Assembly: GCF_019974155.1 (NCBI RefSeq)
Contig: NZ_AP025158.1
Span: 248,001 to 312,000, forward strand
Direction of reading: 5' to 3'
Source of the DNA: Thermus thermophilus
GTDB lineage: Bacteria > Deinococcota > Deinococci > Deinococcales > Thermaceae
Length of the DNA: 64,000 bases
Shown here: piece after piece, positions 45,494-54,309 of the stretch
Position numbering within the stretch: the first letter of the stretch is position 1
Layout: each line of letters begins with the position of its first letter
Translations under genes and position numbers: made by a program
The notes under the pieces: model-generated
The model's input: the letters and a program-made list of their open reading frames with translations, nothing else
Told to the model about the DNA's origin: nothing
Database searches by the model: none

Positions 45494-46684
45494 GACCTCC
45501 TTGGGCCTCGGGGCGGGGATGCCCCCGGTGAGGAAGGCGTAGCCCGCGGCGAGGGCCACCATGGCCCCTGCGAGGAGGAAGACCCTGGGGGCGCCCAAGG
45601 GTTCCTCCAAGGCCCCGCCCCACATGGTGCCGAGGAGGACGGCGGCGTTCATCACCGCGCTGAAGGCGGCGAAGATCCGCCCCCGCATCTCCTGGGGGGT
45701 GTTGAGCTGGAGGATGGAGCGGGCGGGCACGATGAAGGCCATGTTGAGGAAGCCGCTCACGAAGAAGGCGGCGAGGACCCAGGCGTAGACGGGGAAGAGC
45801 CCCACCGAGGCCTCAAAGACCCCGAAGAGGAGAAGGGCGAGGAGGAAGAGGCGCTCCCGGGGGATCCGCCTCAGGAGGTAGGGGAGGCCCACGCCCCCCA
45901 GGATGGCCCCCAGGGCCATGGCCGCCTCCATGAAGCCGAACCCCGCCGAACCCACCCCGAGCCACTTGAGGGCCAGGACCACCCCCAAGGCGGTCTCCAC
46001 CGAGCCGAAGGCGGCGGCGGCGAAGAGGGTGCCCACGGTGCGGCGGACGGCGGGCTGGCGGAAGAGGTGGCCCAGGCCCTCCTTCACCCGCTCCAGGTAC
46101 CCCGCCTTGGGCAGGGCCTGGGGCTTCAAGGGGGGAAGGCCGGTGAGGAGAAGGCCCGAGGCCAGGTAGGTGAGGGCGTCCAGGTAGAAGGCGTAGGCGG
46201 GGCCCACCCAGGCCACCAGAACCCCGGCCGCCCCCACGAAGAGGACCTCGGAGATGCGGTCGGCGAGGAGGATGAGGCCGTTGGCCTCGTCCACCTCCTC
46301 CTCGGGCACCAGGTCGGGAACCACGGCGTTTTGGATGGGGTCGTGGAGGTCCCGGAGGAGCTCCATGAGGAAGACGAGGAGGAGGAGTGCGGGAAGGCTC
46401 TTGGCCCCGAGGAGGGGGATGAGGGCCACGAGGGGGGCCCTGAGGAGGTCCGACCAGACCAGAAGCCGCTTCCGGTCCTGGGTGTCGGCCCAGGCGGAAA
46501 GCAGGGGGGAGAAGACCACGGTGCCGAGGAGCTGGGTGCCCAGCACCAGGGAGACCCAGAGGGCGTTTTCCGTGAGCAGGTAGACGAGGACGAGGAGGGC
46601 CACCCGGTGGACCTTGCTCCCCGCTTGGGAGACCAAATAGGCCGCCACCAGGCGGGCGAAGGCCTTATGACGCAAGACCCGCAT
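45491..46684 (-). CDS. MFS transporter
   Basis: 397-residue 12-helix major facilitator protein with the TQDRKRLLVWSDLLRAP loop between helices 2 and 3 and a central cytoplasmic loop near residue 190. Similar to predicted efflux proteins of the MefA/enterobactin-exporter type; substrate unknown. Has a strong promoter (TTGACC/TATAAT) and AAGGAG before the ATG. Confidence 0.85.
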   Translation of the reverse strand: MRVLRHKAFARLVAAYLVSQAGSKVHRVALLVLVYLLTENALWVSLVLGTQLLGTVVFSPLLSAWADTQDRKRLLVWSDLLRAPLVALIPLLGAKSLPALLLLVFLMELLRDLHDPIQNAVVPDLVPEEEVDEANGLILLADRISEVLFVGAAGVLVAWVGPAYAFYLDALTYLASGLLLTGLPPLKPQALPKAGYLERVKEGLGHLFRQPAVRRTVGTLFAAAAFGSVETALGVVLALKWLGVGSAGFGFMEAAMALGAILGGVGLPYLLRRIPRERLFLLALLLFGVFEASVGLFPVYAWVLAAFFVSGFLNMAFIVPARSILQLNTPQEMRGRIFAAFSAVMNAAVLLGTMWGGALEEPLGAPRVFLLAGAMVALAAGYAFLTGGIPAPRPKEV

Positions 46685-46702
46685 CGCTGCTCCTTGGAGG
46701 GG

Positions 46703-46730
46703 ATTATACCTTGGCCTTTCTCCAGGTCAA
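46703..46730 (-). promoter_or_regulatory. MFS gene promoter
   Basis: Minus strand TTGACC (46730-46725), 16-nt spacer, TATAAT (46708-46703). The TGA in the -35 box is the stop codon of the upstream gene. Confidence 0.75.
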
Positions 46731-48442
46731 GGGAGCGAGAGGAGGGTGTAGGCCAGGCGGCGCCCTTCCCGGGCCAGGACCAGGGCCTTTCCCCCCAGGC
46801 GGTAGACCAGGAGGTCTTTTAGCCGCCTCGGCACCTCCCCCGCCTGGCCCAAGTAGACGGCGTCCTCCTTCAGGCGCACGGAGAGGACGTGCTGGTCCAC
46901 CTTCAGGGCCTGGGGCTCGGGGGTCAAGGCCAGGAAGTGGACCTCCCCCCCGAGGGTCTCCCGGGTGGGGGGGCGGCGGCCCAGGTACTCCCGGAGGGCT
47001 TGGCCCAGGGTTTGGGCCTCCGCCTCCAGGCCCAGGGCCTGGCCCACCTCTTGGAGGAGGGGAAGGGGGTCGGCCTGGCCCAGGCGCTTGAGGGTGAGGT
47101 CCAGGCCCTTGCGGGCGAAGTCCTGGAGGGCCTCTTCCGGCGCTTTGCGGTACTTCTCCGCCAGGGCGGGGCCGAAGGCCTGGGCCTGGAACTCGCCTTT
47201 GAGGCGGGCGGAAAGCCCCCTCAGGAGCCGGAGGTAGGCGTAGTCCTTTCCCGGGTGGAGGAGGTAGGCGAGGAGCCTTCCCTCGGACAGAAGCTCGTAG
47301 AGGCGGAGGCCGCTTCGGGCCTCGAGCCTCAGGTGGAGGAGGTCGTTTTCCCGCACCGCCCACACCTCCAGGTCCTCCCAGGGGAGGACGAGGGTGTCCT
47401 CCAGGGGGTGGTCCTCCCCCTCGAGGCCCAGGTACCAGGCGCCCTCCGCGTGGCTCAGGATGAGGGTGAGGGGGCCGAGGACCACAGGGCCCGGGGCGAG
47501 GCGCAGGGTGAGGAGGCCCTCCTCCTCTTGCCCGGGCTCGGGGACCCTGGGCCAGGGGGTCTCCCCCTGGGGGGTGGGGAGGAGGCTGAGGAGGGCGACC
47601 ACCTTCTCCAGGGCCACGCGGAACCGCCCCTTCTCCTCCTCCAAGAGGAGCTCCCGCCGCCTCGCCTCCTGGGCCGCCTTGCGCAGGCGCTCCTCCAGCT
47701 GGGCCACCTCCTTCTCGCCCGCGCCCAGGCGGCGGGCCTCCTCCAGGGCCCGGCGGAGGGCGGGGAGGTCGGGCTTCGGCGGGAGGTTGTAGGCCCCCTC
47801 CCACTCCAGGAGGCGGTTCAGGAAGCGCCGGACGTAGGTGCGCGTCTCCTCCGGGGGAAGGGGGAGGAGCTTGGGAAGCTCCCGCGCCGTCTCCAGGAAG
47901 TCCACCACCAGGGCCTGGGCCACCTTGGGGTCGTCCAGGTCCATGAGCGTGTCGGAGAGGGAGGGGATGGGACGGGTGGGGACGAAGCGGGAGAGGTTGA
48001 AGTCCCTCTTGAACCCCGGGGTCTCCCGGTAGAGGGCGAAGTTGTCCAGGAAGGCGTGGATAAGCCGGAGCTCCTCCCGCCTCCCCGCGAGGAGGGCCTC
48101 GAGGCGGGCCTTCACGTCCCGCTCCACCTGGAGCCGCCACACCTTGAGGGCTAGGGCGGCCAGGGGGCTCGCCTCCGGAGGCGGGGGCTCGGGCTCCTCG
48201 GGCACGGCGATGGCGGGGAGCTCCACGGGGGCTTGGGCCTCGGGGGCGAGGGCCCGCCTTTGGGCGCGGAAGCGGGCGTCCGCCTGGCGGAAGCGCTTGG
48301 CCAAGGGCCCCGGCAGGCGGGACTGGATGAGGAGTTGGCGGAGCCTTAGGAGGGCCTGCTTCCCCCCTTTAGGCGTGCGGCCCTGGAGGAGGTCCTCCAC
48401 CCGGTACTCGTAGAGGTCCACCAGGTCGTCCAGGTGGTCCAC
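46727..48442 (-). CDS. Large coiled-coil/beta protein of unknown function
   Basis: 571-residue cytoplasmic-looking protein with no recognised domain. An N-terminal Arg/Leu-rich helical part (1-70), a Pro/Glu-rich linker (about 75-90), a coiled-coil region (about 225-275), then a beta-rich half that includes LLTLRLAPGPVVLGPLTLIL and repeated leucine strands. No cysteines of note, no signal peptide, normal codon use. GTG start with TAGGAT 6 nt upstream, sharing a promoter core with the divergent PP2C gene, which hints at a link to that signalling operon. Confidence 0.65.
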   Translation of the reverse strand: MDHLDDLVDLYEYRVEDLLQGRTPKGGKQALLRLRQLLIQSRLPGPLAKRFRQADARFRAQRRALAPEAQAPVELPAIAVPEEPEPPPPEASPLAALALKVWRLQVERDVKARLEALLAGRREELRLIHAFLDNFALYRETPGFKRDFNLSRFVPTRPIPSLSDTLMDLDDPKVAQALVVDFLETARELPKLLPLPPEETRTYVRRFLNRLLEWEGAYNLPPKPDLPALRRALEEARRLGAGEKEVAQLEERLRKAAQEARRRELLLEEEKGRFRVALEKVVALLSLLPTPQGETPWPRVPEPGQEEEGLLTLRLAPGPVVLGPLTLILSHAEGAWYLGLEGEDHPLEDTLVLPWEDLEVWAVRENDLLHLRLEARSGLRLYELLSEGRLLAYLLHPGKDYAYLRLLRGLSARLKGEFQAQAFGPALAEKYRKAPEEALQDFARKGLDLTLKRLGQADPLPLLQEVGQALGLEAEAQTLGQALREYLGRRPPTRETLGGEVHFLALTPEPQALKVDQHVLSVRLKEDAVYLGQAGEVPRRLKDLLVYRLGGKALVLAREGRRLAYTLLSLP

Positions 48443-48448
48443 GGCTCC

Positions 48449-48460
48449 ATCCTATACAAT
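48449..48460. promoter_or_regulatory. Back-to-back leaderless promoters
   Basis: ATCCTATACAAT: minus strand TAGGAT (48454-48449) 6 nt from the GTG at 48442, and plus strand TACAAT (48455-48460) 7 nt from the ATG at 48468. The two -10 boxes touch. Confidence 0.58.
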
Positions 48461-48467
48461 AGAGCCG

Positions 48468-49223
48468 ATGCGCATCGCTCCCCGGCTGAGCGTGGCCGCT
48501 GTTTCCCACGTGGGCCGCCGCCAGAACAACGAGGACTTCCACCGGGTCCTCCCCCTGGAGACGCCGGCAGGGCTTTTGCTCCTCCTCGCGGTGGCCGACG
48601 GGATGGGGGGCCTCGAGGCCGGGGAGTGGGCGAGCAAACTCGCCATTGAGGCCCTTTCCGAGGTGGCCCGGGGCTACGCGGAGCACCTCCAGAGCGGCCG
48701 CCCCGCCGTGGGCCTTGCCCGGGTCATGGAGAAGGGTTTCCTCCTGGCCCGGCGCCGGGTGGAGCGGGAGGCGGGGCGGCCCGAGCGCCGGGGGATGGGC
48801 ACCACCCTCACCGCCTTCCTCTACGCCGACTGGCTCAAGGAGGGGGTGGTGGGGCACATCGGCGACTCCCGGGCCTACCGCTTCGGCCCCACCGGGGTTT
48901 TTCGCCTCACCGAGGACCACTCCTGGGTGGCGGAACGTCTGAAGGAGGGGGTCCTCACCCCCACGGAGGCGGAGCGCCACCCCTACCGCAACGTCCTCAC
49001 CCGGGCCCTGGGCCTTCCCGAGGCGCGCTTTGACCTCGTGGAGGTGCGCCTCGCCCCGGGGGAGGGGGTGCTTCTCGTGACCGACGGGCTCTACGGGCAC
49101 GTACCCGAGGAGGAGTGGCGGCTTGGGCGGGACCTCCAGGCGAGCCTGGAGGCCATGGTGGCCGAGGCCTTGCGGCGGGGCGGGGACGACAACGTCACCG
49201 CCGTGGCCCTGCGGGTGGAGTGA
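48468..49223 (+). CDS. PP2C-type Ser/Thr protein phosphatase
   Basis: 251-residue metal-dependent phosphatase. Motifs in order: RRQNNED (17-23), VADGMGG, GMGTTLTA, GHIGDSRAY, LVTDGLYGH and GGDDNVTAV at the end. All metal-binding aspartates are kept. Leaderless ATG. Expected to reverse phosphorylation by the Hanks-type kinase whose ATG overlaps its stop (TGATG). Confidence 0.92.
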   Translation: MRIAPRLSVAAVSHVGRRQNNEDFHRVLPLETPAGLLLLLAVADGMGGLEAGEWASKLAIEALSEVARGYAEHLQSGRPAVGLARVMEKGFLLARRRVEREAGRPERRGMGTTLTAFLYADWLKEGVVGHIGDSRAYRFGPTGVFRLTEDHSWVAERLKEGVLTPTEAERHPYRNVLTRALGLPEARFDLVEVRLAPGEGVLLVTDGLYGHVPEEEWRLGRDLQASLEAMVAEALRRGGDDNVTAVALRVE

Positions 49224-51181
49224 TGGCCCTGCTCCTCGCTGCCCTCCTCGTCCTCCTCACGGTCCTCCTGGCCGTTCGCCTCCCGGCCTGGGCCTCGGCC
49301 CTTCTCCTCGGCCTTCTCGCCGGGAGCGGGTACGCCCTGGGGGTCCGCTCGGAGGCCTTGCCCGCCGGGGCGCTCCTCTTGCTCGGGGCCCTCGCTGCGC
49401 CCCGCCTCTACTTGGGCCCGAGGCGGCGGAAGCGGCCCGAGCGGCGGCCCCCAGGCCCAAAGCGCCCCGCCGCGGCGGGGACCACGGCCGAGCGGGAGGC
49501 CCTCTCCCAGCGGTACGAGATCCTGGAGAAGGTGGGCCTCGGGGGGATGGCCACCGTCTACAAGGCCAAGGACCGCAAGACGGGCCGCTTGGTGGCCCTG
49601 AAGGTTCCCCAGGAGCGCTTTCTCGGGGACCCCAGGTTCGTGCGCCGTTTCCACCGGGAGGCTGAGGTCCTTACCCGCATGGACCACCCCAACATCGTCA
49701 AGGTCTACGACCACGGTCAGGTGGAGGGCGTCCACTACATCGCCATGGAGTTTCTGGACGGGGAGGGGCTGGACAAGCTCATAGAGGAGAGGCGCCTCTC
49801 CCTTAGGCAGGCGGCGGCCATCCTGGCCCGGGTGGCGGACGCCCTGAGGCACATCCACGCCCAGGGCATCGTCCACCGGGACATCAAGCCGGGGAACATC
49901 ATGGTCCTCAAGGGGGCCTTGAGGGAGGAGGGGGTGGACCCCAGAGGGGTGCGCCTCATGGACTTCGGCATCGCCGCGGGCCGGGTGCTCACCCGCCTCA
50001 CCATCACCGGGGCCCGGATCGGCACCCCCGTGTACATGAGCCCGGAGCAGGCCAAGGGGCAGAAGCTGGACCACCGCTCGGACATCTATTCCCTGGGGAT
50101 CGTCCTCTACGAGGCCCTCACCGGCCAGCCCCCCTTCACCGGGGGGTACGAGACGGTGATCCATCAGCAGATCTTCCAGATGCCCACGCCCCCCAAGCAG
50201 CTCAGGCCCGAGATCCCCCAGGCCCTTTCCGACCTGGTCCTGAGGATGCTGGAGAAGGACCCCGCCAAGCGGCCGGGCCTGGACGAGGTGGTGCGGGTCC
50301 TCGAGGGCCCCTGGGAGGAGGAGCGCGAGCTTTCCGAGGCCCAGTACCTCCTGGTGGCCGTGGAGGCGAAGAAGGGGGCGGTGCGCCTCTTGGACCTGGG
50401 GGGCACCCCGGCCCGCCTCCTCTCCGGGGTGGGGTCGGGGGCGGGGCAGTTCCCCTCGCCTCCCTTGGCCGTGGCCGCCGATCCTGGGGGGGGGATCTGG
50501 GTCGCCGTCTTCCAGCACGGGGAGAAGCTCCTCCACCGCCTCTCCCCTCAAGGGGAGGTCCTCCTCTCCACTGGGCCCTACGGGATGAAGCCGGGGGAGT
50601 TCCTCCTCCCCGTGGGGCTCGCCGTCCTCGAGGACCAGGTCTTCGTCTTGGACGGGGAGACGGCCACGGTGAGCCGGCTGGACCTCGCGGGGCGGTACCA
50701 GGGCCGCTTCGGGGGCCAGGGGCTTGGGCGGGGCACCTTCCGAGACCCCAAGGCCCTGGTGGCGGCCGAGGGGCACCTCTTCGTCCTGGACTACGGCAAC
50801 CGGCAGGTGCAGCGCCTCACCCCCGAGGGGGCGTACCTCTCCCGCTACGCCTTCCGCCGCTCCCGCGAGGACGGGGCCCTTAGGCTCCTCGGGGGGCTGG
50901 GGGCGGGGGAGGGCCGGCTCTACCTTTACGACGTGGAGGCGGTCAAGGTCCGGGTGTTGGACCTCTCGGGGCGGCTTCTCGCCTCCTACCCCCTGCCCCT
51001 TCTGGAGGGGGAGGACCGGATGAGCCTGGTGGAGCTCCTTCCCGTGGGCCGGGTCCTATACGCCGCCCGCCGGGGCTCTAGCCGCATCCACCGGATCTCC
51101 CTGGACACCGGGGAGGCCCTTCCGCCCTTGGAGGTCTACGCGCCCGTGCGGGGCCTGGCCCTTTGGAGGCGGACGCCGTGA
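49223..51181 (+). CDS. Ser/Thr protein kinase with C-terminal NHL-type beta-propeller
   Basis: 652-residue Hanks-type kinase. Two to three hydrophobic N-terminal segments (about 1-63) anchor it; a basic linker follows, then the kinase domain (about 97-370): GLGGMATVYKAK, K127, HRDIKPGN (D220), DFG (247-249), SPEQAKG. The rest (about 385-645) is a propeller of NHL-like repeats (such as GAGQFPSPPLAVAADPGGGIWV, LFVLDYGNRQVQRL). No membrane segment separates kinase and propeller, so both should be on the same, cytoplasmic, side, unlike PASTA kinases. Coupled to the PP2C gene and the response regulator. Confidence 0.88.
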   Translation: MALLLAALLVLLTVLLAVRLPAWASALLLGLLAGSGYALGVRSEALPAGALLLLGALAAPRLYLGPRRRKRPERRPPGPKRPAAAGTTAEREALSQRYEILEKVGLGGMATVYKAKDRKTGRLVALKVPQERFLGDPRFVRRFHREAEVLTRMDHPNIVKVYDHGQVEGVHYIAMEFLDGEGLDKLIEERRLSLRQAAAILARVADALRHIHAQGIVHRDIKPGNIMVLKGALREEGVDPRGVRLMDFGIAAGRVLTRLTITGARIGTPVYMSPEQAKGQKLDHRSDIYSLGIVLYEALTGQPPFTGGYETVIHQQIFQMPTPPKQLRPEIPQALSDLVLRMLEKDPAKRPGLDEVVRVLEGPWEEERELSEAQYLLVAVEAKKGAVRLLDLGGTPARLLSGVGSGAGQFPSPPLAVAADPGGGIWVAVFQHGEKLLHRLSPQGEVLLSTGPYGMKPGEFLLPVGLAVLEDQVFVLDGETATVSRLDLAGRYQGRFGGQGLGRGTFRDPKALVAAEGHLFVLDYGNRQVQRLTPEGAYLSRYAFRRSREDGALRLLGGLGAGEGRLYLYDVEAVKVRVLDLSGRLLASYPLPLLEGEDRMSLVELLPVGRVLYAARRGSSRIHRISLDTGEALPPLEVYAPVRGLALWRRTP

Positions 51182-51828
51182 GGGTGCTTCTGGTGGAGGA
51201 CGACCCCGGGGTGCGGGAGGCCTTGGAGCTCGGCCTTTCCCTGGAGGGGCACGAGGTGCGGGCCGTGGACCGGCCCGAGGAGGCCTTGGGCCTTCTTTCT
51301 TGGGCCGAGGTGGTGGTTTTGGACGTGCTGTTGCCCCAGGGAGACGGGTTTTCCCTTTTGCGCGCGATCCGGGAGCGCTCCGAGGTCCCCGTCCTCATGC
51401 TCACCGCCTTGGACGGGGTGGAGTGGCGGGTGAAGGGCCTTAGAGAGGGGGCGGACGACTACCTGGTGAAGCCCTACAGCCTCCAGGAGCTTTTGGCCCG
51501 CCTCGAGGCCCTGGTCCGCCGGGCGCGGAGGCGCGAGGAGGTCCTCGCCTACAAGGACCTCCGCCTCTACCCCCGGCGCATGGAGGCCTTCCGCGGGGAA
51601 AGGCGCCTCGCCCTCTCCCCCAAGGCCTTCCTCCTCCTGAAGGCCTTCCTCGAGGCCCCGGAGGAGGTTCTGTCCAAGGAGGCCCTGATGCGGAAGGTCT
51701 GGGGGGAGGAGGTGGAGCCCGCCACCTTGGAGGTCCACCTCTCCGCCCTGAGGAAGGCCTTGGGGGAGCCCAGCCCCATCCAGACGGTGCGCGGGTATGG
51801 CTACCGCCTTTTCCTCCCTGAGGGCTAG
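51178..51828 (+). CDS. OmpR/PhoB-type response regulator
   Basis: 216 residues: receiver domain with acidic pocket E7-D8-D9, phosphoacceptor D49 (VVLDVLLP) and conserved K near 101 (LVKPYS), then a winged-helix DNA-binding domain (LSPKAFLLLKAF ... TVRGYGYRL). GTG start overlaps the kinase stop (GTGA) and has GGAGG 8 nt upstream. Overlaps the histidine kinase gene by 32 nt. Confidence 0.92.
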   Translation: MRVLLVEDDPGVREALELGLSLEGHEVRAVDRPEEALGLLSWAEVVVLDVLLPQGDGFSLLRAIRERSEVPVLMLTALDGVEWRVKGLREGADDYLVKPYSLQELLARLEALVRRARRREEVLAYKDLRLYPRRMEAFRGERRLALSPKAFLLLKAFLEAPEEVLSKEALMRKVWGEEVEPATLEVHLSALRKALGEPSPIQTVRGYGYRLFLPEG

Positions 51829-53101
51829 GCTCTTCGCCCTCCTCCTCCTCGCCCTTTTCCTCCTCCTTGCCCCCTTGGCCTGGCTTTCCGCCCGGGAGGC
51901 GGAGCGGGCCGCGAGCGAGGACCTGAGGCGGGCCCTCTACACCCGGCTTTACCTCCTCCAGGCGGAGGGGATCCGGGACGAGGAGCGGCTTCTTCGGGAG
52001 CTTTTCCGCCTGGCCCAGCTCTTCGGGGGCGGGGTGGGGTTTGTCCTCCGGGAGGGAGAGGCCCGCTTCACCCAGCTCGGGGACTGGCCTTTACCCCCCG
52101 GGCTTCCCGCGGCCTTGGCGGCGGAAGGGGTCTACCAGGGGGTCTTTCGGGGGACGCTCTATGTGGCCCTGGCCCAAGGAGGGCTCGCCTACGGCCTTGC
52201 GGTGCCCCTGGAAGGGGTTTCCGGGCTCGGCCGGCGCCTCCTCGCCCGCTACGCCCTCTGGGGCGGGGGGCTTTTGCTTGGGGTCTTCCTCCTCGCCGCC
52301 CTCGCCCTTTCCTGGGCCCTCCGTCCCCTCCGGGACCTGGAGAAGGCCTTGCGGGCCCGGGCGCCCGAGGACCTGAGCCCCCTCCCCGACCCGGGCCTGG
52401 CCGAGCTGAAGCCGGTGGTGGCGGCGCTGAACGCCCTTTTCGCCCGGGTGGGGCGGCTCCTCGCCGAGCTTGCCGAGAAGGAGGAGGCGGCCCGGCGCTT
52501 CGCCCGCCACGCCTCCCACGAGCTCCGCACTCCCCTCACCGCCCTCAAGGGCTACCTGGAGGTGCTGCGGCGAAGGCCCGAGCCCCGGGCCCTGGAAGGG
52601 GCTTGGCGGGAGGCCGGGCGCATGGAGGTCCTCCTCGCGGGGCTTCTCCGCCTCTCCCGCCTCGAGGCCCTTCCGCCCCAGAGGGTCCCCTTGGACCTCC
52701 GGGCCTTCCTGGAGGCCCAGGGCCTCGAGGTCCAGGGGGAGGGGAGGGTCCTGGCCGACCCCGAGCTTTTGGCCCTCGCGGTGGAGAACGTTCTGGAGAA
52801 CGCGCGCCGCCACGGCAGGCTTCCCGTGCGGGCGGAGCTTTCCCGGGAAGGGGAAGGGGTCTGGGTCTGGCTCGTGGACGCGGGCCCCGGGTTCCCCGAA
52901 GACCTCCTTCCCCGGGTCCTGGAGCCCTTCGTCCACGGGGGCAAGGGGACGGGGCTCGGCCTCGCCCTGGTGGCCGCGGTGGCCCGGGCCCACGGGGGCA
53001 GGGTCCGCGTGGAAAACCGCGGGGGGGCGGGGGTGGGGCTTTACCTGCCTTTGGCTCCGCTTAAGGTTTCCCCCGGTGCGCCCTTTGGGGAGGGGGGCTA
53101 G
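51797..53101 (+). CDS. Sensor histidine kinase
   Basis: 434 residues. Two transmembrane helices (about 10-30 and 152-175) enclose a ~120-residue periplasmic sensor without a recognised fold; a HAMP-like linker follows, then the H-box ASHELRTPLTA (H241), N-box VLENARRHG, G1 DAGPGF and G2 GKGTGLGL. Partner of the preceding response regulator. ATG start lies inside the regulator gene. Confidence 0.9.
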   Translation: MATAFSSLRARLFALLLLALFLLLAPLAWLSAREAERAASEDLRRALYTRLYLLQAEGIRDEERLLRELFRLAQLFGGGVGFVLREGEARFTQLGDWPLPPGLPAALAAEGVYQGVFRGTLYVALAQGGLAYGLAVPLEGVSGLGRRLLARYALWGGGLLLGVFLLAALALSWALRPLRDLEKALRARAPEDLSPLPDPGLAELKPVVAALNALFARVGRLLAELAEKEEAARRFARHASHELRTPLTALKGYLEVLRRRPEPRALEGAWREAGRMEVLLAGLLRLSRLEALPPQRVPLDLRAFLEAQGLEVQGEGRVLADPELLALAVENVLENARRHGRLPVRAELSREGEGVWVWLVDAGPGFPEDLLPRVLEPFVHGGKGTGLGLALVAAVARAHGGRVRVENRGGAGVGLYLPLAPLKVSPGAPFGEGG

Positions 53102-53126
53102 CCTGGGTCCTGGGAGGTGATGCGGG

Positions 53127-53657
53127 ATGAAGAAAGCGGTTGTCGGCGTGCTGGCTCTTTTGGCGGGCCTCTCCCTGGCCCAGCAGGTGGACTACCGGGA
53201 GGCGGCCTGGGCGGCGGCGGCCCTCGCCCGGCTGCAGACCGTGGCCGAGAAGGCCTCGGGGGAGGAGAAGCTCCTCTCCTGGGCCAAGGAGCTCAAGGCC
53301 CGGGCGGAGAAGAGCTACGAGGCCAAGGCCTACTTCAAGGCGGCCCGGGAGGCCCAGGCCGCTCTCCTCCTCTACCGGGCCGCTCAAGGGGAGCCCGAGG
53401 CCCCCATGGGCTACCGTCACGGCCATGGCCCTAAAGACTGGGGCCGCTGGGGCAGGGACCTTTCCGCCCGTCTTGGCTCCCGCGCCCAGGCCCTGGTGGA
53501 CCGGGCGGAGAAGGAGCGCGTCTACTACCGGGGGCAGGACCCCCTGGTGCAAAGCCTCATCGCCGAGGCCAAGGCCCGGCTGGACAAGGAGCCCGGAAGG
53601 GCCTTCCTCCTTGCCCAGGCGGCGCTGGCCCTGATCTCCGCCGAACGGGGGTTCTAA
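53127..53657 (+). CDS. Exported helical protein of unknown function
   Basis: 176 residues with a signal peptide (MKKAVVGVLALLAGLSLAQ). The mature part is mostly helical, Ala/Glu/Arg-rich, with a His/Gly patch (YRHGHGPKDWGRWG) in the middle that could bind metal. ATG has an unusually complete Shine-Dalgarno sequence, GGAGGTGAT, 5 nt upstream. Being the fifth gene of the phosphatase-kinase-RR-HK run, it may be a sensed or regulated envelope protein; I do not recognise a family. Confidence 0.7.
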   Translation: MKKAVVGVLALLAGLSLAQQVDYREAAWAAAALARLQTVAEKASGEEKLLSWAKELKARAEKSYEAKAYFKAAREAQAALLLYRAAQGEPEAPMGYRHGHGPKDWGRWGRDLSARLGSRAQALVDRAEKERVYYRGQDPLVQSLIAEAKARLDKEPGRAFLLAQAALALISAERGF

Positions 53658-53664
53658 GGTAAGG

Positions 53665-54090
53665 ATGCGGTGGCTCGTCGGCCTCCTCCTCCTCGCCCAG
53701 GCGGTCCTGGGCCAGGGGGAGGCCGACGGGCCGGTGGCTTCTCCGTCAGGAGCCCACCTGGCGGAGCGGGCGCTTTTCCGCTGCCTCGAGGTCCTCAAGG
53801 GCCTCGAGGTCCAGGCCTTCTACCGGGAGGGGCCGGGCCTCCTCGTCCTCCTCGGGCGGGAGCGGTCCCTCCTCGTTTTGGCCCTGGAGGGGGGAAGGCT
53901 TTGGCCCCACCCGCGGCCGCCCCGGGGGAGGCCCCTGCCCAAGCGGCCCTTTCCTTTCCTGCGGGAGCTCACCCTGGCCCCCTGGGTGCTGGAGGTGGAG
54001 GGGGAGTACCGCTGCTTCGTCCTCCACCGCGGGCGGGTGGTGGGGATCCTCCGCCTGGACCAGGACCTCCGCCCCCTGCCCCTCTTTTAG
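53665..54090 (+). CDS. Small exported protein of unknown function
   Basis: 141 residues with a signal peptide (MRWLVGLLLLAQAVLGQ). Mature sequence is beta-rich with Arg/Pro-rich middle and two cysteines, in LFRCLEV and EYRCFVL, that could form a disulfide. Starts 7 nt after the previous gene and ends the signalling operon just before a double repeat element. Family unknown. Confidence 0.62.
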   Translation: MRWLVGLLLLAQAVLGQGEADGPVASPSGAHLAERALFRCLEVLKGLEVQAFYREGPGLLVLLGRERSLLVLALEGGRLWPHPRPPRGRPLPKRPFPFLRELTLAPWVLEVEGEYRCFVLHRGRVVGILRLDQDLRPLPLF

Positions 54091-54112: not shown

Positions 54113-54146
54113 GCCCTTTGGGGCCCCCGCCGCGGCGGGGGGCTTA
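54113..54146 (+). repeat. Isolated tail of the Thermus hairpin repeat
   Basis: TTTGGGGCC followed by the 16-bp palindrome CCCCGCCGCGGCGGGG (54125-54140) and GGCTTA, as in the tail of the copy at 45403, but with no head. It joins tail-to-tail with the next, reversed copy. Confidence 0.75.
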
Positions 54147-54247
54147 AGTACCCCACCGCGGCGAAAGCCGCGGTGGGGGCCCCAAGAGGACCTTCCCAAG
54201 CCTTATTTCGGGCGACCCATGTTGCGAAATCCACGTGCAGCCACTTA
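54145..54247 (-). repeat. Thermus hairpin repeat, reversed copy with inverted hairpin
   Basis: Reading the minus strand: TAAGTGGCTGCACGTGGATT head, same middle as the copy at 21183 and a 12-bp hairpin, ending GTACTTA. In this orientation the loop is TTTC rather than GAAA, so the hairpin is flipped relative to the head compared with the other copies. Confidence 0.88.
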
Positions 54248-54309
54248 GCCTTGGCCCCGGCATGTGCTAAGCTTTTCTCCGTGTGCCCCTTGGGGGCTTG
54301 GGAGGAGCC

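Follow-up and report, generated by a model that had tools for sequence, protein, structure and literature searches.

What holds a Hanks-type Ser/Thr kinase, a PP2C phosphatase and a complete two-component system together in one operon of Thermus thermophilus? The question is posed by an array of six + strand genes in the 64,000-nucleotide (nt) stretch of DNA analysed here (the window, on whose + strand all operon coordinates are given; Table 1). These genes encode, in order, the phosphatase (PP2C), the kinase (STK), a response regulator (RR), a membrane histidine kinase (HK) and two exported proteins, EXP1 and EXP2. Bacterial Ser/Thr kinases often touch two-component regulators, usually from separate loci. 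A preliminary description of the locus had read the six genes as one coupled operon with no gap larger than 25 nt, and had taken their joining to suggest phosphorylation between the two systems. The array itself is confirmed, with slightly refined coordinates: the PP2C and kinase genes meet at TGATG (1-nt overlap), the kinase and regulator genes at GTGA (4-nt overlap), and the RR and HK genes share 32 nt, followed by gaps of 25 nt (HK to EXP1) and 7 nt (EXP1 to EXP2). The locus is probably a pair of operons docked end to end, an arrangement whose benefit would be that a pathway sensing the inside of the cell and one sensing the outside are supplied and regulated together, with no need for phosphorylation between the two systems.

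The full six-gene order is found in the window and in 24 further Thermus loci (L050-L073), that is, in all 25 of the assessable Thermus, and also in a genome of the sister genus of Thermus (L074); the recurrence of nearly the same overlaps in all of these genomes places the gene order beyond chance. In the labels used below, Thermus is g1, Meiothermus g4 and the sister genus g5, while g2 and g3 are other genera of the Thermaceae. Within Thermus the spacings are near constant: -1 between PP2C and kinase in all but two loci, -4 between kinase and regulator, an RR-HK overlap of 26 or 32 nt and a gap between HK and EXP1 of mostly 17 to 25 nt. Long RR reading frames extending further into HK were rejected as an artefact of matches that overran the true stop, whose position in most Thermus is two codons earlier.

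Synteny across Thermus and Meiothermus had been proposed as a check on the linkage, and its outcome is divided: the linkage is conserved throughout Thermus and is absent in Meiothermus, where the orthologous RR-HK pair lies apart from the kinase. None of the 19 loci from g2, g3 and Meiothermus has an orthologous regulator or histidine kinase after the kinase, which there ends its own operon and is followed in most loci inspected by a peroxiredoxin-like gene. In genome G006 (L047) a regulator and histidine kinase do lie about 0.7 kb behind the kinase, but at 39% and 34% identity they are another two-component system; the true RR-HK orthologue of this genome sits on another contig. In the outgroup families f2 and f4, too, PP2C and kinase lie next to the divergent gene DIV, described below, with no two-component genes, so that the absence of such genes behind the kinase is, judged from gene order, ancestral. 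The kinase occurs in every one of the 31 phylum genera examined, far more widely than the operon linkage. Since it is also retained in four Meiothermus genomes that have no histidine kinase, its distribution indicates that it is not dependent on this two-component system.

The two-component half has a history of its own. Profile searches with HK found one clear orthologue in most non-Thermus Thermaceae, scoring far above the paralogues, and orthologous RR-HK pairs are present elsewhere in the genomes of Meiothermus, g2 and g3 (RR 316-327 bits, HK 415-450 bits). Across the loci compared (L212-L216 and L218-L223), the pair is the neighbour of a TetR gene in g2 and in most Meiothermus loci examined, and in g3 it adjoins genes for an extracytoplasmic function (ECF) sigma factor and an RskA-type anti-sigma factor; its regulatory company has thus changed repeatedly. 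In g2 and g3 the pair is followed by SCO1 and/or copper-monooxygenase/cytochrome-like genes and then by EXP2 and an AddB-like gene, and in G006 the order is RR-HK-EXP2-AddB. An AddB-like gene also follows the six-gene operon in most Thermus; the window instead has L25-pth-ddl after EXP2. These gene orders are read most naturally as an RR-HK-EXP2-AddB block ending up behind the kinase a single time; in the operon EXP1 is inserted between HK and EXP2. A tree of kinase plus PP2C and a tree of RR plus HK (both built by a quick method, with a long branch for the sister genus) each unite Thermus with the sister genus with a support of 100, and the linkage therefore needs only one origin. The arrangement arose once, in an ancestor that Thermus shares with its sister genus, and was kept.

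The same junction could have been produced without any selective benefit, if loss of the genes in between fused two operons that had nothing to do with each other and their linkage then persisted by inertia and read-through. In g2 the kinase and, about 9-13 kb further downstream, the two-component block share a strand, so that plain gene loss could form the junction; this arrangement is perhaps the remnant of an intermediate, perhaps a coincidence. At 2.0-2.4 Mb, the genomes of Thermus are smaller than those of most Meiothermus. Furthermore, one Thermus genome with about 95.6% DNA identity to the window (G039, locus L049) lacks a segment from the end of RR through HK and EXP1 into the start of EXP2 (window 51514-53764); the completeness of this genome is 87% and there are stops in its kinase frame, and the case is either a real deletion or poor assembly. 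Most of MFS and DIV (window 45691-48051) is also missing from G039, as a separate gap. The g2 arrangement and the G039 exception, together with the conjectural nature of the selective reason for keeping the linkage, weigh against the reading that we prefer. Purely neutral persistence nevertheless appears quite unlikely, since the linkage and its near-identical overlaps have been kept in all assessable Thermus and in the sister genus despite a change of neighbours after EXP2 in the lineage of the window and despite the insertion of EXP1.

Signals for transcription are concentrated at the head of the operon, which DIV faces from the opposite strand. On the PP2C side the -10 element is TACAAT (48455-48460), whose end is 7 nt ahead of the ATG, so that the gene is leaderless; on the DIV side it is TAGGAT (- strand, 48454-48449), 6 nt ahead of the start of that gene. 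Both starts are thus 6-9 nt from -10-like hexamers, which is the arrangement expected for leaderless genes. Such genes, with TANNNT, account for about 40% of Deinococcus-Thermus genes (PMC3160421). A -10 hexamer at leaderless distance precedes PP2C in 40 of 44 loci (3.1 expected from shuffles) and DIV in 42 of 44 (2.3 expected), although the DIV-side hexamer is weak (4/6) in most Thermus. The two elements overlap in 26 of the 40 loci having both, and in Meiothermus they form one overlapping element, TATTATAA/TTATAATA. No element comparable to these precedes STK, RR, HK or EXP1 in any genome, and EXP2 is preceded by a -10 element in 2 of 25. Terminator-like sites inside the operon number 5 against 4.5 in shuffled sequence, that is, chance level. 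Given that there is no conserved internal -10 and that terminator-like sites are at chance frequency, a single coupled transcript of six genes is well supported by the sequence signals and co-expression of the six is probable. The proposal of a coupled operon is thereby supported, as promoters or terminators separating the two signalling pairs had been named as the evidence that would speak against it. A scan of the window against Rfam found no RNA family.

Table 1. Features of the operon and of its divergent partner (window coordinates).
Feature	Coordinates	Strand	Sequence features
PP2C-type Ser/Thr phosphatase	48468-49223	+	PP2C_2 match 9e-15; DGMGG, GDSR, TDGL and GGxDN motifs conserved
Hanks-type Ser/Thr kinase	49223-51181	+	Pkinase 2e-54 and NHL 6e-06 in Pfam
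OmpR/PhoB-family response regulator	51178-51828	+	Response_reg and Trans_reg_C; phospho-acceptor Asp49, Thr76, Lys98
Membrane histidine kinase	51797-53101	+	HAMP, HisKA with His241, HATPase_c
EXP1, exported helical protein (apparent signal sequence)	53127-53657	+	Invariant C-terminal AERGF
EXP2, small exported protein (apparent signal sequence)	53665-54090	+	Two conserved Cys, 40 and 117
DIV, 571-aa protein, divergent partner	46727-48442	-	Starts 25 nt upstream of PP2C
Divergent promoter region	48443-48467	.	Between the DIV and PP2C starts

The first half of the operon has the parts of a Ser/Thr phosphatase and kinase pair. The phosphatase carries the metal-binding Asp motifs of the PP2C fold, and the kinase has the Hanks-type fold with catalytic Lys, HRDxKxxN and DFG; its catalytic residues K127, E146, D220 and D247 are invariant, and its best fold match is PknB of Mycobacterium tuberculosis (E 1.6e-20). 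Three N-terminal hydrophobic helices (residues 2-58) are followed by the kinase domain (98-357) and a propeller (about 370-650) that is of the NHL type by sequence and matches the NHL domain of Drosophila Thin (E 2e-29). The predicted structure (mean predicted local distance difference test, pLDDT, 80; membrane part at low confidence) has no membrane-type helix between kinase domain and propeller. Since three hydrophobic helices precede the kinase domain and none separates it from the propeller, both should lie in the cytoplasm, in agreement with the original placement of the propeller on the kinase side of the membrane.

This topology distinguishes the kinase from PknD of M. tuberculosis, also a membrane Hanks kinase with a propeller, which there is an extracellular sensor (PMC6213207); in the Thermus kinase, by prediction only, no membrane helix separates the propeller from the kinase and the two are on the same side. 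By architecture, a Ser/Thr kinase with a beta-propeller domain, it resembles RqkA (DR_2518) from the same phylum, the radiation-responsive quinoprotein Ser/Thr kinase of Deinococcus radiodurans, which is activated by PQQ and DNA ends; the propeller of RqkA is of the WD40/PQQ type (PMC11007091), and that of the present kinase matches NHL repeats. When the genome collection was searched with a kinase profile, records from Thermus and Meiothermus came first and generic kinases after them, with no named Deinococcus. The overlapping phosphatase and kinase genes recall pairs of the prpC-prkC type, from which the locus differs in having DIV as a partner and in its equivalog scores: in NCBIfam the phosphatase scores 168.8 against a cut-off of 230 bits for Stp1/IreP, and the kinase 311.9 against 450 for PASTA kinases of the PknB/PrkC group, a model that matched in the kinase part only. 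On our preferred reading, PP2C and the NHL-propeller kinase, divergent from DIV, would represent an old signalling core in which the kinase detects a cytoplasmic cue through its propeller and PP2C resets the kinase substrates.

The second half is of the OmpR/EnvZ type, with a receiver and winged helix in the regulator, HAMP-HisKA-HATPase in the histidine kinase, and both the phospho-acceptor His and Asp present. OmpR/EnvZ-type systems with exported accessory proteins, such as CpxP-like proteins, form units of regulator, membrane histidine kinase and small exported protein. The unit seen here is similar, except that sequence searches with EXP1 and EXP2 matched no Pfam family or PDB chain. EXP2 and HK are missing from the same five genomes (G008, G010, G011, G015 and G043), even though in the compared Meiothermus genomes, apart from G006, they are not linked. 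Four of the five are each 99% complete and form one clade in the kinase plus PP2C tree, G043 being 65% complete; the joint loss is one shared event, not many. Relatives of EXP2, as EXP2-AddB, stand next to the orthologous RR-HK in g2, g3 and G006, and EXP1 relatives adjoin other pairs of regulator and histidine kinase, both in Meiothermus and at two loci of this genome (L207, L208). Because EXP2 is absent together with HK and EXP1 relatives lie beside other pairs, the exported proteins track two-component systems and not the Ser/Thr kinase. They had been described as possible sensed or controlled envelope factors; in two-component signalling they may be sensed, do the sensing or be regulated.

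The two EXP1-like copies in this genome are similar to each other and are found at about 1.464 Mb of the chromosome (C1; L207) and at about 12 kb of a 19-kb second contig (C2; L208); at L207 a lipoprotein-like and a PepSY-like gene lie between the EXP1-like gene and the pair. Just after the operon, at about 54145-54248 of the window, is a segment of about 104 bp with the ends TAAGT...ACTTAG and an internal hairpin. It has 17 copies in the genome, with sharp edges and unrelated flanks, and 20-30 matches in several other Thermus; its site is empty in G039 (97 bp absent). It looks like a small mobile element similar to miniature inverted-repeat transposable elements.

According to the docked arrangement that we favour, the second half would be an independent envelope-sensing two-component system, with EXP1 and EXP2 as exported accessories, that became the immediate downstream neighbour of the kinase gene before Thermus and its sister genus diverged. 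One leaderless promoter and the overlapping start and stop codons would then make all six proteins together. A closer integration was suggested by the preliminary description: the Hanks kinase would phosphorylate RR or HK on Ser/Thr, PP2C would remove the phosphate and the regulator would read both pathways. Phosphorylation of regulators by eukaryotic-like Ser/Thr kinases is an established mechanism elsewhere, for PrkC-WalR, CovR, DosR and VraR (PMC4478028; review PMC6213207). PrkC-WalRK of Bacillus subtilis shares with the present locus the theme of a Hanks kinase and an OmpR-family two-component system. However, PrkC is a kinase with PASTA repeats. In this case, the best studied of its kind, the target in WalR is Thr101, the residue in front of the active-site Lys, and PrkC did not accept even Ser at this position (PMC4478028); the Thermus kinase has no PASTA domain, and the equivalent regulator residue is Val97 in 37 of 38 sequences and Ala in the other, from the sister genus, so that the Thr found before the active-site Lys in WalR is lacking.

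The regulator does contain one residue that follows the linkage. Ser101, three residues after the active-site Lys98, is present in 26/26 operon-linked regulators and is Ala in 12/12 unlinked orthologues, and it is the only Ser/Thr fixed solely in the linked set. It is also one of nine near-fixed differences between these two sets, and Ser or Ala is common after KP[FY] in the regulator family. Ser101 is thus a weak candidate phosphosite, compatible with a new site and equally with drift. To our knowledge none of the documented pairs of Ser/Thr kinase and regulator needs operon linkage, and the persistence of the kinase in Meiothermus genomes without the two-component system also speaks against integration. 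In a study of Thermus phosphoproteins no kinase is named as the one responsible (PMC12667214). We found no positive sequence evidence for cross-phosphorylation; direct biochemical cross-talk is possible but unsupported, and an integrated circuit of this kind is unlikely.

The more unusual item of the locus is DIV, a protein conserved in the whole phylum with no recognised domain or fold that is paired with the kinase operon; both DIV and the promoter between the two starts had been missed in the preliminary description. Of 111 genomes of the class, 95 contain a member of the family (roughly 570-660 aa). DIV lies opposite PP2C and kinase across the shared leaderless promoter throughout the Thermaceae and two further families, the triad reaching families f1, f2 and f4 and not being found in the f3 and f5 loci examined. 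The DIV frame is split in two in locus L105. A structural model (pLDDT 87) is helical with two small beta domains. DIV has no match in Pfam or NCBIfam and no fold match in PDB at E<0.001, a PDB sequence search gave nothing usable, and no relatives were found on known plasmids. In families without the triad, the neighbours of DIV give no clear functional lead. It is very unlikely that DIV, PP2C and the inward-facing kinase make up a phylum-wide module of a new kind, with DIV as dedicated substrate or scaffold, which in Thermus gained direct control of the regulator through Ser101. DIV is a place to look for the real job of the kinase. As for the operon as a whole, a transcript that carries both signalling systems throughout a genus, with the parts still apart in the outgroup, offers a natural before-and-after comparison, from which one could learn whether a biochemical link came into being when the genes were joined or whether expression alone became shared.

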